Translations under genes and position numbers: made by a program
Notes under the pieces: generated by a model
Told to the model about the DNA's origin: nothing
The model's input: only the letters and a program-made list of their open reading frames with translations
Databases searched by the model: none
In this document: positions 7,261 through 36,300 of the stretch, one piece after another
Position numbering within the stretch: the first letter of the stretch is position 1
Layout of the letters: each line of letters starts with the position of its first letter
Origin: Parascardovia denticolens DSM 10105 = JCM 12538
GTDB taxonomy: Bacteria > Actinomycetota > Actinomycetes > Actinomycetales > Bifidobacteriaceae
Assembly (NCBI RefSeq): GCF_001042675.1
Contig: NZ_AP012333.1
Coordinates: 1,426,001 to 1,490,000 of the forward strand
Reading direction: 5' to 3'
Length of the DNA: 64,000 nt

Positions 7261-7332
7261 CGCCGCCTGTCGGACCCTGTTTCGATTTCATTGAAACTAC
7301 AATCATCTTCACGATCGAAGGAGCAAATGATC

Positions 7333-8031
7333 ATGGATAAAGCAACTCAGGACGCATTGAAGAAGGCAGCCGGCGTGCAAGCCGCCCAGCTGATCCAGGA
7401 CGGGATGACCGCCGGTCTGGGCACCGGGTCCACCGTGCGTTTCCTGGTCGACGAGCTGGGCCGCCGCGTGCAGGAGGAGGGCCTGAAGTTCACCGGCGTC
7501 ACCACTTCCCGCCGCACTCAGGAGCAGGCCGAAGGCTACGGCATCAAGATCGTGGCCGTGGACGATGTGGACCAGATCGACATCACCATCGACGGGGCCG
7601 ACGAAGTGGACAAGAACTTCAACGGCATCAAAGGCGGCGGCGCCGCCCTCCTCTGGGAGAAGATCGTGGCAACCAATTCCAAGAAGATTATCTGGATCGT
7701 GGACGAGTCCAAGGTGGTGGACACCATCGGCAAGTTCCCCCTGCCCGTGGAGGTCATTCCTTTCGGAGCCGGCCACGTGGTCAAGCGTTTCGAGAAGCGC
7801 GGTTACAAGCCTGTTCTGCGTCTGGATGCCGAAGGCAAGGAAGTCCTGACCGATGAGAAGAACTTCGTGGTCGACCTCCACCTGGACCGCATCGAGCATC
7901 CTCAGGAGCTGGCCCAGGACCTGATCACCACCGTGGGCGTGGTGGAGCATGGTCTCTTCCTCAACATGGTGGACACCGTCATTGTCGGCGACCCCAATGG
8001 TCCCCGCGTCCTGACCAACCCCAATAAATAA
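7333..8031 (+). CDS. rpiA: Ribose-5-phosphate isomerase A
   Basis: Interconverts ribose 5-phosphate and ribulose 5-phosphate, supplying pentoses for nucleotides and, in this family of organisms, the phosphoketolase shunt. Family motifs are GLGTGSTV near the N-terminus, DGADEVD with catalytic acidic residues near 75, and KGGGAAL just after it, followed by IWIVDESK. The 232-residue length is normal. GAAGGAG at 7317-7323 is 9 bases before ATG 7333; the ATG at 7327 is too close to it. The gene stands alone between rnhA and a large inverted repeat that separates it from the convergent fetAB genes. Confidence 0.96.
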
Positions 8032-8046
8032 GTCCAATCAGGAATC

Positions 8047-8125
8047 GGTGTATACGAAAGGCGGTTACAGAAAAGAGCCCTCTATTTGGAAGGGCTCTTT
8101 TCTGTAACCGCCTTTCGTATACACC
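8047..8125. repeat. Perfect 35-bp inverted repeat between convergent genes (copy 1)
   Basis: Two exactly complementary 35-base arms (8047-8081 and 8091-8125) flank a 9-base loop. The inner part (AAAAGAGCCCT ... AGGGCTCTTTT) is a typical two-way intrinsic terminator. The outer part carries GTATACGAAA and GGTTACA, shared with a second palindrome at 32251-32329. It lies between the convergent ends of rpiA and fetB, so it probably ends transcription from both sides; the shared outer part also suggests a dispersed element. Confidence 0.9.
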
Positions 8126-8227: not shown

Positions 8228-9001
8228 TCACTCCTGAGGAATCTCCAAGAGCTGGGCCCGCTTGTTGAAATAATTGCGGTGGGCCAGGTAACCAGCAATC
8301 ACCGCCCCCAGGCCGGTGGCGGACAGCAGCATGAAGGTGACCATGATCTGGTACTTGATGGCGTAAACCGGATCCACCCCGGCGAAGATCAGGCCGGACA
8401 TCATCCCCGGCAGACTCACCAGGCCCACGGTCTTGGCCGAATCGATGGTGGGCTGCATGGCGGTCTTGATGCTCCGCCTCAGGATGGACATGCTGGCCGC
8501 CTTGACGGGAGCTCCGAGGGAGAGCTTCTCCAAGACCTGCTGCCTTTGGTCGTGGAAGCTGGAATAAAGGGTCTTGTAGCACAGGCCAATGGCCACCATC
8601 TCGTTGCCGGCGATCATGCCGGTGATGGGGATGATCTGGCTGGGGGTCATCTTGACCGTGCGGGTAATCAGCAGGATTCCCAAAGTCACATAGGTGCCGA
8701 TCAACATGGCCACGATAGCCTGCCAAAGCTGCCTGCGGCTGTTGGGATCGCGCTTGTTGGCATTCCAGGAGGCGTTGAAGATGATGAGGAGGGTGATGGC
8801 GATGGTGAAAAAGACGTTGTTGACGTGGAAGATGAACTTGAGCGCGTAGCCGACCACGGCCAGCTGGATGATGGCCCGGGCCACGCTGAAAAGCACGTCT
8901 TTGGCCAGGCCCAGCCGCTCTTTGGCCGAAATCCCCACTGAGACCAAGACCAGGGCGAAGGCCATGAACAGGGACCAATCACTGACTTGAAGGTTTTTCA
9001 T
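8228..9001 (-). CDS. fetB: FetB-type iron export ABC permease
   Basis: A 257-residue membrane protein of the UPF0014/FetB (YbbM) family, the permease of an ABC exporter linked to iron efflux and oxidative-stress resistance in E. coli. It has about seven hydrophobic segments, beginning with SLFMAFALVLVSVGI. Family landmarks are ARAIIQLAVVGYAL, PITGMIAGNEMVA and the cytoplasmic stretch MQPTIDSAKTVGLVSLPGMM. Its ATG overlaps the stop of fetA by four bases (ATGA), so the two are coupled. Substrate in this organism is inferred from homology. Confidence 0.9.
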   Translation of the reverse strand: MKNLQVSDWSLFMAFALVLVSVGISAKERLGLAKDVLFSVARAIIQLAVVGYALKFIFHVNNVFFTIAITLLIIFNASWNANKRDPNSRRQLWQAIVAMLIGTYVTLGILLITRTVKMTPSQIIPITGMIAGNEMVAIGLCYKTLYSSFHDQRQQVLEKLSLGAPVKAASMSILRRSIKTAMQPTIDSAKTVGLVSLPGMMSGLIFAGVDPVYAIKYQIMVTFMLLSATGLGAVIAGYLAHRNYFNKRAQLLEIPQE

Positions 9002-32046: not shown

Positions 32047-32250
32047 GATCCTTTTGAATGGGTTGGGCGGATGAGGGGGTGGGTTTGATGGATGGGAGGG
32101 TTGGTTGGGTTTTAATTTGGGCTAACCGGGTTGGGATTAATTGGATTTTCAACATGGTTTCGATTGGTTTTGGTTGTTATTGATTGGAAATTTGGATTTT
32201 GAGTGGGATTTTTGATTGGGATTGAGGTTATTTTGGCCCCCAGCCCAGTC
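32047..32250. other. Gene-free, strand-asymmetric G/T-rich stretch
   Basis: About 200 bases in which the plus strand is mostly G and T (GGTT, GATT and TGGG words recur), with few C. No coding signal is seen. It is the first part of a 750-base gene-free interval between the transporter and ileS. Confidence 0.7.
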
Positions 32251-32329
32251 GGCGTATACGAAACGAGGTTACAAAATAAGACCCTTGCAAATGGCGGCCT
32301 GTTTTTTGTAACCTCGTTTCGTATATGCC
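32251..32329. repeat. Long inverted repeat between convergent genes (copy 2)
   Basis: Left arm 32251-32276 and right arm 32304-32329 match at 25 of 26 positions. Both contain GTATACGAAA (GTATATGAAA-type on one side) and GAGGTTACA, as in the palindrome at 8047-8125, while the loop sequence differs. It again lies between convergent transcription units. Confidence 0.85.
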
Positions 32330-32334
32330 CACAT

Positions 32335-32425
32335 GGATGGGTGATGCCTGGCACAAATGGTGTCTGGTATGGGTGATGCCTGGCATAGGTGAAGCCTGGC
32401 ACAAATGGTGTCTGGCATGAGGGGA
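32335..32425. repeat. Degenerate tandem repeats
   Basis: Units of the form GGTGATGCCTGGCA and AAATGGTGTCTGGCAT alternate about five times. The minus strand stays open for 76 codons in places, but the sequence is repetitive and no ribosome site is seen, so it is probably non-coding. Confidence 0.7.
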
Positions 32426-32472
32426 AGAATATGGACATGCCCGGCCATTGCCGGGCATTGTCAGATATGGAT

Positions 32473-32718: not shown

Positions 32719-35700
32719 TCAGGCCTTGGTAACCTGAGCGCTCACACTGGCACCGGCGGCCGCAAATCGGACCTCCAAACTGGTAGCCAAAGTCTCCGAG
32801 CAAATCAAATCCTTGAACTGGTCCACCTGAGCCTGATGCTCCTGAGGAACCAGCAAGGTCAGGGAAATACGGTCGGAGATGTTGAGACCGGCCTCCTTAC
32901 GGGCGTCCTGAACCACGCGGATGGTATCGCGAGCGTAGCCTTCGGCGACCAGATCGTCGGTCAGGGCCGTATCCAGGAGGACGAAGCCGCCGGTCGGCAA
33001 AGCCGAGGAAACATAAGAGCCGCCGGCACTACCAGCGGCCCCGGTAGCCCCGGCAGCGGCCTCTTCCACCCGGCTGTCGAGCTCATACTCCCCCTCTTGC
33101 AGGACCAGGTCGCCGGTCGGGGTCTCCACGAACACGGTCCCTTCCGCATCCTGATGCCAGGCACCGGTCTTGGAGGCCTTGATGGCGAACTGCACCTGCT
33201 TGCCCAGACGAGGGCCGGCGGCGCGGGCGTTCACCTTCAGCTCGTTGATCAGGCGCAGGCCATGCTTGCCGGCGTCATCCACGGTGGTGAACTCCACGGC
33301 CTTCACATTGAGCTCGGACTTGAGCAGACCCTCATAAGGCTGCACGGCGGCGACATCATTCACCACGGTCAGCTGGGACAAAGGCTGACGGACGCGAATC
33401 TTCTGAGCCTTGCGCAAAGACAGGGTGGAGGAAACGACTTCGCGGACCTTCTCCATGGCCGCCACCAGCTTGTCATCAGCCAGCAGGACCGCCCCCAGCT
33501 CGGTGTCAGCCGTCTGGGCGCAACCGTCCTCAGTCAGGAAGGGCCAATCAGCCAGGTGAACGGACTCGCCGCCGGTCAAGCCGCGCCACATGGTCTCCGT
33601 CTCCATGGGAGCCAGAGGAGCCATGACCCGGCTCAGCACTTCCAAAGCCGTGTAAAGGGTGTTGAAGGCGTTTGGATCCTCATCCCAGAAGCGGTCGCGG
33701 GAGTTGCGGACGTACCAGTTGGTCAGCATGTCGATGTAGTCGGACACGGCTTCGCAAGCGTCGGAGATGGCGAAGGCGTCCAAGGAAGTCTCCACATCCT
33801 TGACCAGCTTGCGGGTGCGGGCCAGCAGGTAACGGTCCATCTGGGGCAGGCCTTTGACCTCGGCGGGCTTCACTTGCCGGGCCGCATAGCCCTGGCCCTG
33901 GTTGGCGGCGTTGGCGTAGAGGGTGAAGAAATAATAGGTGGACCACAAAGGCAGCATGATCTGACGGACCGTGTCGCGGATCCCGTCGGCGGTCACGACC
34001 AGGTTGCCCCCACGCAGGATGGGCGAGCTCATGAGAAACCAGCGCATGGCGTCGGACCCGTACTTGTTGAAGACCCCGTTCACATCCGGATAGTTGCGCA
34101 GGTGCTTGCTCATCTTCTGCCCGTCGTTGCCAAGGACGATGCCGTGGCAGATGACGTTCTTGAAAGCGGCCGAGTCGAAGAGGGCCGAAGCCATGACGTG
34201 CAGGGTGTAGAACCAGCCGCGGGTCTGGCCAATGTACTCCACCACATAGTCGCCGGGGAAATGCTGCTCGAAGTATTCCTTGTTCTCGAAAGGATAATGG
34301 AACTGGGCGAAAGGCATGGAGCCGGACTCGAACCAGCAGTCCAGCACGTCGGGGATACGGCGCATGGTGGATTTGCCGGTCGGATCGTCGGGGTTCGGTC
34401 GGGTCAGCTCATCGATCCAGGGCCGATGCAGATTGACTTCGCCCTTGTCATCAGTGGGATAACGGCCAAAATCAGCCTTGAGCTCGTCCAAGGACCCATA
34501 GACGTCCACCCGAGGATGGGCGGGGTCATCGGAGACCCAGACCGGGATAGGAGAACCCCAGTAACGGTTGCGGGAGATGGACCAATCGCGGGCGTTGGAC
34601 AGCCACTTGCCGAACTGTCCGTCTTTGACGTTCTCCGGAATCCAGTTGATCTCCTGATTATGCTTGAGCAGGCGGTCCTTGATCTTGGTCACGGACACGA
34701 ACCAGCTGGATACCGGCTTGTAGATGAGCGGGGTGCCGCAACGCCAGCAATGAGGATAGCTGTGCACATAAGACTTATCCCGGACCAGGAAGCCTCGCTG
34801 ATCTTCAGGCACGGAAGCCATGACCCCGGTCTGGTTGCGCAGGTCGCGGACAATCCGGCTGTTGGCGTCAAAGACCATAGTCCCCTGATATTCAGGGATC
34901 AGGGAGGTGAAACGGCAGCCTTCATCCAGGTAATCCACGGTCCGAATCTGGTGCTTGTTGAGGGTGTTGATATCATCCTCGCCGTAAACGGCCTGATGGA
35001 CCAGACCGGTGCCTTCCGTCGTGTCCACGTAATCGGCCGTATAAATGGTGAAGGCGTTGGGGTCCTCGGAGGCCTTGCCATCAGGACTGGTCAGGGAGCC
35101 GTCCAGGAAATAAGGGAGGACGGGCCAGTAACGGCGACCTTCCAGGTCAGAGCCTTTGAGGGTGCGCAGGACCTGATAGTCCTCCCCTAGCTCCTTGGCG
35201 AAATCACCCAGCAAAGCGGTGGCGAAGTACATCTTCTTCCCGGCGAAAGGACCATTGACGGGCTGGACCAGGGAGTAGTCGATGTCAGGACCGACCACGA
35301 TGGCCATGTTACCGGGAACAGTCCAAGGGGTGGTGGTCCAGAAGACGGCGTAGGCGTCTTCATCCCGCATCTTCACGGCCACGGCCACGGACAGGTCCTG
35401 CCGATCCTGGTAGACGTCGGCGTCCATACGGAGCTCATGATTGCTCAGAGGGGTCTCGTCCTTGGGGCAGTAAGGCAGGACCCGATAGCCCTGATAGGCC
35501 AGGCCCTTCTGGTAAAGCTGCTTGAAAGCCCAGATCACCGACTCCATGTAAGTGGTGTTGAGGGTCTTGTAGCCGTTCTCGAAGTCGACCCACCGGCCCT
35601 GACGGTGAACGTATTCCTTCCACTCATTGGTGTACTTGAGCACGGACGTGCGGCAGGCGGCGTTGAAGGCGGCCAGACCCATCTCGTCGATCTGGCTCTT

Positions 35701-36075
35701 GTTCTCGATGCCCAGCTCCTTCTCCGCTTCCAGCTCGGCGGGTAGGCCATGGGTGTCCCAACCGAAGACACGGTTGACCCGACGGCCCTTCATGGTCTGG
35801 TAACGGGGAATCACATCCTTGGCGTATCCGGTCAGCAGGTGACCGTAATGAGGCAGGCCGTTGGCGAAAGGAGGGCCGTCGAAGAAGACGAATTCGTTGT
35901 CGGAATGGTCGCCGGAAGGATTGCGCTCCACCGACTTGTTGAAGGTGTCGTCCACATCCCAATACTTGAGGACGGCCTCTTCTATGTCTGGGAAGCTGGG
36001 ATTGGGGGTGATGGCCCCCTGACCCGGTTCGACTTCGCGGGTGACGACCTTGGGGTAAACGCGCTTGCTGTTCAC
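32719..36075 (-). CDS. ileS: Isoleucyl-tRNA synthetase
   Basis: Class I synthetase of 1118 residues. The HIGH motif is present as HYGHLLTG near residue 80, with FDGPPFANGLPHYGH. The CP1 editing domain follows (TTPWTVPGNMAIVVG; GTGLVHQAVYGEDD). The KMSKS loop is QKMSKHLRNYPD near 640. Anticodon-binding and C-terminal domains follow. Length and the absence of a zinc finger fit the longer, type 2 (eukaryote-like) enzyme class found in many actinobacteria, which is often less sensitive to mupirocin. The start is GTG 36075, 5 bases after ACGAGGAG, and this site lies inside the T-box switch upstream. The frame extending to 36120 is part of the leader. Confidence 0.97.
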   Translation of the reverse strand: MNSKRVYPKVVTREVEPGQGAITPNPSFPDIEEAVLKYWDVDDTFNKSVERNPSGDHSDNEFVFFDGPPFANGLPHYGHLLTGYAKDVIPRYQTMKGRRVNRVFGWDTHGLPAELEAEKELGIENKSQIDEMGLAAFNAACRTSVLKYTNEWKEYVHRQGRWVDFENGYKTLNTTYMESVIWAFKQLYQKGLAYQGYRVLPYCPKDETPLSNHELRMDADVYQDRQDLSVAVAVKMRDEDAYAVFWTTTPWTVPGNMAIVVGPDIDYSLVQPVNGPFAGKKMYFATALLGDFAKELGEDYQVLRTLKGSDLEGRRYWPVLPYFLDGSLTSPDGKASEDPNAFTIYTADYVDTTEGTGLVHQAVYGEDDINTLNKHQIRTVDYLDEGCRFTSLIPEYQGTMVFDANSRIVRDLRNQTGVMASVPEDQRGFLVRDKSYVHSYPHCWRCGTPLIYKPVSSWFVSVTKIKDRLLKHNQEINWIPENVKDGQFGKWLSNARDWSISRNRYWGSPIPVWVSDDPAHPRVDVYGSLDELKADFGRYPTDDKGEVNLHRPWIDELTRPNPDDPTGKSTMRRIPDVLDCWFESGSMPFAQFHYPFENKEYFEQHFPGDYVVEYIGQTRGWFYTLHVMASALFDSAAFKNVICHGIVLGNDGQKMSKHLRNYPDVNGVFNKYGSDAMRWFLMSSPILRGGNLVVTADGIRDTVRQIMLPLWSTYYFFTLYANAANQGQGYAARQVKPAEVKGLPQMDRYLLARTRKLVKDVETSLDAFAISDACEAVSDYIDMLTNWYVRNSRDRFWDEDPNAFNTLYTALEVLSRVMAPLAPMETETMWRGLTGGESVHLADWPFLTEDGCAQTADTELGAVLLADDKLVAAMEKVREVVSSTLSLRKAQKIRVRQPLSQLTVVNDVAAVQPYEGLLKSELNVKAVEFTTVDDAGKHGLRLINELKVNARAAGPRLGKQVQFAIKASKTGAWHQDAEGTVFVETPTGDLVLQEGEYELDSRVEEAAAGATGAAGSAGGSYVSSALPTGGFVLLDTALTDDLVAEGYARDTIRVVQDARKEAGLNISDRISLTLLVPQEHQAQVDQFKDLICSETLATSLEVRFAAAGASVSAQVTKA

Positions 36076-36300
36076 ATGCACTCCTCGTTCAAACGGCTGC
36101 GTACTACGAGGACGATGCATGATCTCAAATGCGGATCATGACCGCGGTACCACCTCGTTTGGCGGAATCGGCTTACGCGGATCCCGTCCACTCGTGGCTG
36201 GCTGTGTCGGGCCATCCCGTCGGTTCTAATAAGAGCAGGCTGAAATCCTGCCTCCGTTCTTCCGAAAGCTCCCCGCTGATGACGGATCAAAGCTTGATGC
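36076..36300 (-). promoter_or_regulatory. Translational T-box riboswitch of ileS
   Basis: The leader contains the T-box sequence AGGTGGTACCGCGG (36155-36142), the tRNA-acceptor-binding bulge, and a 5' domain with ATC triplets suited to tRNA-Ile. CCTCGT (about 36110-36105) can pair upstream with ACGAGG of the T-box (antisequestrator) or downstream with ACGAGG of the ribosome site (sequestrator, reinforced by ATGCA/TGCAT). No terminator T-run is present, so control should act on translation: uncharged tRNA-Ile frees the ribosome site. Confidence 0.92.

Follow-up and report, generated by a model that had tools for sequence, protein, structure and literature searches.

Why would two long palindromes in separate gaps of one genome carry the same outer sequence? 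The question is raised by the window (the whole 64-kb stretch that was analysed, C1:1426001-1490000 of the 1,890,857-bp, one-contig genome of Parascardovia denticolens, called the host below). Copy 1 (c1434050) occupies 8047..8125 on the + strand, in the gap between rpiA and fetB, and copy 2 (c1458254) occupies 32251..32329 on the - strand. Both are 79 bp long, and the covariance model R2, built from the host copies described below, scores them at 95.9 and 96.6 bits, respectively. The initial annotation gave copy 1 perfect 35-base arms, and it has them: a left arm at 8047..8081 (+) and a right arm at 8091..8125 (-) that is its reverse complement, with a 9-nt centre between. The outer arms of copy 2 (left, 32251..32276, +; right, 32304..32329, -) are 26 bp long and fully paired except for one G-U pair. 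In both copies the outer arms are mostly (G/C)GYGTATACGAAANGNGGTTACA.

These features are far from what shuffled sequence produces. Arm words occur in four places of the window with 0-1 mismatch and in a fifth with 3 mismatches, whereas shuffled sequence gives 0.05 on average when up to 3 mismatches are allowed. Against dinucleotide shuffles, the folding z scores on the two strands are -14.8/-16.6 for copy 1 and -9.6/-9.4 for copy 2, and none of 200 shuffles reaches the fold stability of either palindrome. An Rfam scan of the 64-kb window at the gathering cut-off gave no match. Copy 1 lies between rpiA (7291..8031, +; NCBIfam NF001924, E 6.9e-88) and a fetB-like permease gene (8228..9001, -; TIGR00245, 347.7 bits, below the cut-off of 410). 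Copy 2 has an MFS_2 (GPH-type) symporter gene on one side and ileS (32719..36120, -; TIGR00392, 789.5 bits) on the other. The genes rpiA, fetB and ileS are context: they are the surroundings of the elements and stand outside the repeat-enzyme system discussed here. The sequence adjoining copy 2 has features of its own, with imperfect short repeats of the type GGTGATGCCTGGCA / GGTGTCTGGCATG at 32330-32430 and a strongly G/T-rich gap sequence to the left at 32060-32235. A purine-rich stretch similar to the latter lies in the gap of another host copy, c1602726 (L022).

A family of nine elements in the host genome

The initial annotation noticed the outer words common to the two palindromes, proposed a genome-wide search for further inverted pairs and held that a lack of further copies would count against a repeat family. 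A pattern search of the whole host genome that allowed up to 3 mismatches gave nine arm matches per strand, every one of them in an inverted pair whose starts are exactly 53 bp apart. The common words are therefore confirmed as part of a genome-wide family (family A) of nine elements of identical length (79 bp). This rules out the idea of two unrelated look-alike palindromes. No unpaired family A arm was found in the host genome at up to 3 mismatches. The nine copies align over 79 columns with zero indels, and 42 columns are invariant. The centres had been described as different, which holds only in part: the nine align without an indel and all have ACAGGCCGCCATTTCCAACC, the common form of the family A centre, or a diverged form of it.

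The arms show compensatory changes. Eight of 35 possible pairs have changed on both sides, as against 3.2 +/- 1.4 after shuffling; only one of 500 shuffles reached 8, and slid versions of the alignment give 1-4. A single copy has GATAGA in both arms, whereas the others have GTTACA, or GTTATA in one arm of two copies. By eye, the arms also contain AAC..GTT, which may be compared with the R/L box of the integron attC site. Searches outside the host genome were negative within their scope. In blastn at E ≤ 1, two elements had no match among plasmids and one had none among phages, the paired arm pattern gave 0 matches in a genome contig collection that possibly lacks the host genome and, judged by title, the open-licence literature returned no relevant account of GTATACGAAA.

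Relatives of the element can nevertheless be found in the Bifidobacteriaceae when the search is broadened. With no more than 1 mismatch allowed, one of 189 family genomes contains the arm, the host itself, and at 2 mismatches a single copy with diverged arms appears in one sister species. Model R2, built from the nine host copies, finds matches in 12/189 genomes and 3/16 genera, and a broader covariance model, R3, in 30/189 genomes and 6/16 genera. Copy numbers from R3 are lower bounds because 24 candidates per genome were scored. Three loci matched by R2 (L055-L057) were rejected as elements, being short hairpins of 44-54 bp, and were left uncounted. Re-searching 80 loci gave 91 element places, 90 of them 80-83 bp long and one 70 bp. 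In every better-sampled genome the arms have a sequence peculiar to that genome and repeated inside it. In Scardovia wiggsiae (S. wiggsiae), which belongs to the same genus as the host, the arms are TGGTGGTAAAACACGCAGATACAAAA or a close form in all twenty copies examined.

Several details of these loci deserve a record. Elements sometimes stand in close pairs, 12-35 bp apart (L052, at 1501-1582 and 1596-1676, and also L127, L143, L153, L158, L164 and L167), as if they attract or duplicate beside one another; in L127, L143 and L153 the members come from two different arm families. In L156-L174 (genomes G163, G155 and G162), GGTCT on the left or AGACC on the right lies within 30 bp in 13/23 places and both are present in only 2/23, perhaps a weak outer repeat. 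A control stretch (L217, 19-146) holds two overlapping 109-bp palindromes (GCGGTAAAACCCTCATGGGGCGGTAA) that resemble a longer class. One genome, G098, has nine loci (L136-L144) with well-conserved elements (GGCTCACACTAACCCATGGTTACC) that are orphans with respect to the gene family introduced in the next section; it holds at least 15 element matches, both strands counted, and no DUF559 match at E ≤ 1e-10.

Palindromes beside DUF559 genes

One clue to the nature of family A is what lies between its copies. At the four sites inspected where two elements are 1.0-1.4 kb apart, in the host and in three bifidobacteria (G107, G103 and G109), they enclose a DUF559 gene (4/4). The host genome has three DUF559 genes. 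The family A gene (C1:611144-612202) is flanked by elements at 610887-610965 and 612299-612377. The gene at C1:289067 is flanked by a second family, B (288794-288874 and 290057-290147), and the gene at C1:1267189 by a third, C (1267066-1267150 and 1268309-1268390). A palindrome scan found family C on both sides of its gene and family B on one side. BLAST with one B element showed that the second flank of the B gene is also B, and since this supplied the missing flank, all three genes are bracketed by their own family. The same search added seven further B copies, and BLAST with one C element returned both flanking copies, a third copy and a partial match of 26 bp. The three families are mutually different and each has dispersed copies in the host genome. 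The window palindromes are thus probably solo copies of the repeat family that belongs to the gene at C1:611144-612202.

Does the pairing extend beyond the host? A search with four DUF559 proteins found relatives in 106/189 family genomes (E ≤ 1e-10), and at class level 129/246 genomes have a match at E ≤ 1e-15. Among 30 best-of-genome loci, 22, counted by eye, have a palindrome (60-110 bp, at least 20/24 outer pairs) within 500 bp, compared with no such palindrome in 232 kb of block-shuffled sequence. When the next 40 loci on the match list were added (70 loci, 19/24 pairs), 54 had a palindrome within 700 bp and 20 had one on both sides. In 400 kb of real sequence from 20 family genomes there were 33 palindromes, and of 380 pseudo-genes of 900 bp placed in this control sequence 43 had at least one palindrome and none had one on both sides. 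A further 96 loci came from class-level genomes and named records (Mycobacterium, Nocardia, Agrococcus, Flexivirga), few of them bifidobacterial; three of 99 were skipped. At 20/24, 45 of these carry a palindrome no farther than 700 bp from the gene, and the same loci yield 64 palindromes in 132.2 kb near the genes but 7 in 259.5 kb at distances above 1 kb.

The pooled set comprises 166 loci (68 + 27 + 71). Dropped from it were L245 and L265 (partial or unclear ORF), L296-L302 (genomes and genes already counted) and L312, L327, L271 and L276 (no ORF chosen); L195, L245 and L265 were left out at one other step of the locus analysis. At 19/24 pairs, a palindrome lies within 700 bp of the gene at 124 of the 166 loci, and 55 loci are flanked on both sides; 42 have none at the thresholds applied. 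Palindromes are present at 65/74 bifidobacterial and 59/92 other loci. They measure 55-150 bp, lengths shaped by the scan bounds, so that some near 150 may be due to chance, and often abut the 3' end of the gene. In one locus (L191, G066) several stand in a row to the left of the DUF559 gene at 1510-2505.

The two flanks of a gene mostly carry matching palindromes where both have one. Arms match (at least 16/24 bases) at 45 of the 55 double-flanked loci, the other 10 being non-matching, compared with 1.28% of cross-locus pairs. Arms and proteins also diverge together. Arm sharing falls from 81% of 47 locus pairs at 70-90% protein identity to 14% of 227 pairs at 50-70% and 0.1% of 4980 pairs at 20-30%, and in a Mantel comparison of arm similarity with protein identity (rho 0.19) none of 1000 permutations reached the observed value. 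Element length follows the protein tree as well. The two main bifidobacterial clades, with the root at the midpoint, have median elements of 79 bp (21/24 tips with an element, including the three host genes) and 119 bp (39/43 tips), a difference with a Mann-Whitney p of 6e-7, uncorrected for relatedness. Because closely related species were retained in the locus set, loci are not independent and p values serve as guides only. Counted by genome, the link is weak: DUF559 matches occur in 22/30 element-bearing genomes (counted by eye) and in 84/159 others (Fisher p 0.045), and 8/30 element-bearing genomes, including G098, G104 and G105, have no match at E ≤ 1e-10.

The DUF559 protein and known repeat systems

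What kind of protein is encoded between these palindromes? Three of the four proteins have Pfam DUF559 as their top match, above the cut-off (best E 6.7e-6); in the fourth, MTES_1575 scores higher and DUF559 lies 0.1 bits below the cut-off. An AlphaFold2 model of the S. wiggsiae protein (mean pLDDT 86.5, 32 aligned sequences) was compared with known structures by VIA-align. Residues 175-275 match the catalytic domain of I-Bth0305I (3r3p; Z 12.7, rmsd 2.1, 94 aligned), with 3hrl (Z 10.8) and mitoribosomal proteins (Z 10.8 and 10.3) as other matches. Residues 27-170 match chain residues 57-195 of the AbiEi antitoxin 6y8q_A (Z 11.0, rmsd 3.4, 127 aligned), followed by MenT1 and nucleotidyltransferase entries (Z about 7-8). 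There is no Vsr structure among the 50 matches listed, which excludes nothing. Foldseek alone gave no match at E ≤ 0.001, with 3r3p at E 0.26-0.36 and probability 0.97-0.98. Sequence profiles match 3hrl (E 0.0022), 3r3p (E 0.074) and, weakly, Vsr (E 1.3).

The predicted architecture is therefore an AbiEi-like part fused to a nuclease domain of the Vsr/EDxHD type. Among 25 diverse proteins D230, S231, E234, R238, G245, D264, G278, D288 and W300 are invariant, and E275 and H281 are almost invariant. In AbiEi the DNA-binding winged helix is N-terminal, and because the match covers chain residues 57-195 it does not demonstrate a winged helix in DUF559. PADLOC matched no model to the four proteins at E ≤ 0.01.

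Each half of the predicted protein resembles a known protein family from which the whole differs. The C-terminal fold is predicted to be like that of the EDxHD homing endonuclease I-Bth0305I, and the profile matches to it and to Vsr are weak. Unlike those enzymes, the DUF559 protein is encoded by a free-standing gene bracketed by palindromes and has an extra N-terminal part. That part is predicted to fold in a way that resembles AbiEi, the antitoxin of a type IV toxin-antitoxin system, but is fused here to a nuclease domain, and the match omits the chain residues before 57.

The closest overall parallel is the REPtron, the combination of REP/REPIN sequences with RAYT (TnpA-REP) genes, as presented in excerpts of the REP/RAYT literature (PMC3116915, PMC3733652, PMC8266576). 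In both cases palindromic repeats are mostly intergenic, solo copies are dispersed, the gene is bracketed by its own repeats and matched to them in sequence, and one genome can hold several families, each with its own gene. The enzymes are different: a predicted AbiEi-like and Vsr/EDxHD nuclease fusion here, an HUH tyrosine transposase there. REPs are given in the same excerpts as 20-40 bp long, compared with 55-150 bp for the present palindromes, and a constant GTAG or CGTC tag is missing here. At the foot of 100 elements (within 6 nt on either side, read inwards) GTAG occurs 2 times, CTAC 2, CGTC 4 and GACG 22, where by our own estimate about 7 of each are expected by chance. GACG is the CGTC tag of certain REPs read on the opposite strand, so that a link to the CGTC-tagged REPs of PMC3733652 is conceivable. 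Membership of RAYT/REPIN is ruled out, since Y1_Tnp (PF01797) has 0 matches in the host genome; the control was positive in 5/14 named genomes.

Alternative explanations

The best explanation is probably that the two-domain DUF559 proteins and the cognate palindromes of actinobacteria form a paired system comparable to REP/RAYT. Could the palindromes have a more ordinary role? The initial annotation observed that both window copies lie between convergent genes and thought of a two-way terminator. The observation is correct for these two but not for the family. All nine host copies are in gaps between called genes, of which four are convergent (the assignment of the copy at 786477 spans a 1.6-kb gap holding small uncalled ORFs), three tandem and two divergent. 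Over 13 genomes, 99 copies divide into 48 in tandem gaps, 21 in divergent and 18 in convergent ones, with 9 that run more than 20 bp into a called ORF and 3 that sit at the edge of a locus. These are raw counts, not set against element-free gaps, with genes called by a simple codon-usage script; they leave out the weak own copy L175, which is included in the 100 elements of the foot-tag and target-site counts. Copies mostly avoid genes, which answers the note's refuting condition of random placement, but convergent gaps are not favoured. Bidirectional terminators or 3'-end RNA stabilisers, with a sequence kept common through gene conversion, are accordingly an improbable account. The hairpins are very stable, their inner arms are A-rich and T-rich, and copy 1, which begins 16 bp past the stop of rpiA, is the first hairpin seen after that gene. 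The element may act as a terminator locally, for instance behind rpiA. As a common family role termination was rejected on the gap counts, and the proposal of a two-way terminator is unsupported at that level. Moreover, three host gaps (those with rpoC, rplQ and, at window copy 2, the symporter gene) hold another terminator-like hairpin, and matched arms specific to each DUF559 locus are not needed for termination. Autoregulation by the DUF559 protein is the strongest rival, although an unlikely one. The palindromes would be operators, the solo copies regulatory targets, and the nuclease domain would be otherwise employed. Inverted repeats in the promoter of an AbiEi gene are bound by the AbiEi protein itself, and the N-terminal part matches AbiEi. 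However, that match lacks the chain residues before 57, a palindrome is present on the 3' side at 98/166 loci (the nearest at a median distance of 15 bp to the stop, with 48 at -25 to +20) and on the 5' side at 81/166 (the nearest at a median of 171 bp to the start), 18 of the 99 solo or own copies are in convergent gaps, and the 24-35 near-perfect pairs of an arm exceed what an operator requires.

What if the elements are ordinary MITEs of an unrelated transposase, since lost, and DUF559 is a passenger? Like MITEs they are short, non-coding and dispersed, with a fixed length and inverted-repeat ends, and the initial annotation was right in spirit when it spoke of a REP/MITE-like element, given that intergenic copies of one length are dispersed and a gene goes with them. 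A further point in favour comes from a comparison of 29 loci (20 from S. wiggsiae, 9 from the host) with 400 kb of the genus's third species. Two host gaps, rpoC/aldo-keto reductase and rplQ/ABC transporter, could be matched there on both sides, and the element is absent from both of these orthologous gaps. Some copies seem to be vertically inherited: an element occupies the equivalent place in two congeneric species (2001-2082 in both L154 and L113) with nearly identical flanks. Unlike a MITE, an element is a single palindrome that is complete or nearly so. In the host genome no unpaired arm, and with it no parental transposon with such ends, was found at up to 3 mismatches, and the flanking words show no sign of target-site duplication. 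At offset 0, the 100 elements have 5 equal 3-mers (1.6 expected) and no equal 4-mers, 5-mers or 8-mers, and no equal 8-mer appears at offsets from -3 to +3, the exact ends of the elements being uncertain by a few bases. Nor would a passenger be expected to recur beside palindromes with unrelated arms over many genera. The MITE explanation is therefore very doubtful. Just as doubtful is a role in defence or self-recognition, with the nuclease acting on invading DNA and the palindromes marking or tethering it. Genome-conflict systems include domains of both the AbiEi and the EDxHD type, but the PADLOC search was negative and the dispersed intergenic copies would be left unexplained.

The reading of DUF559 and its palindromes as a paired system suggests how such elements might spread. 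In line with the binding site that the initial annotation offered as another possibility, the palindrome is a plausible candidate for the binding site of the cognate DUF559 protein. The protein would recognise it as a hairpin, as a cruciform or as two half-sites, and the nuclease domain would nick or cut there. Repair or copying might then disperse and maintain the elements, as is thought for TnpA-REP/RAYT and REP sequences, where the logic proposed in excerpts of PMC3116915, PMC3733652 and PMC8266576 is that the enzyme acts at the repeats and so spreads or preserves them. Recognition of folded or paired arms fits the matching arms, the co-divergence with the protein, the two-sided changes and the dispersed solo copies.

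The data point to a kind of repeat-plus-enzyme pair not recognised before. Titles and abstract openings of the open-licence papers searched contain no description of DUF559-palindrome pairing, and an earlier account elsewhere is possible. On balance, though with less assurance than the pairing itself, two-domain DUF559 proteins may provide the enzymes for a second class of REP-like system, selfish or domesticated, that evolved independently and in which a homing-type nuclease recognises, spreads and maintains its cognate palindromes while the specificity between protein and arm co-evolves. The proposal bears on the origin of palindromic repeats that lack a known enzyme, such as the 'CGTC' REPs, which an excerpt of PMC3733652 describes as having no dedicated transposase. 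It assigns a possible function and a built-in substrate to a widespread gene family of obscure role, and it offers many natural enzyme-site pairs that could serve to work out a recognition code. If it is true, DUF559, a widespread orphan family of actinobacteria, would gain a role as a family of REP-like enzymes.
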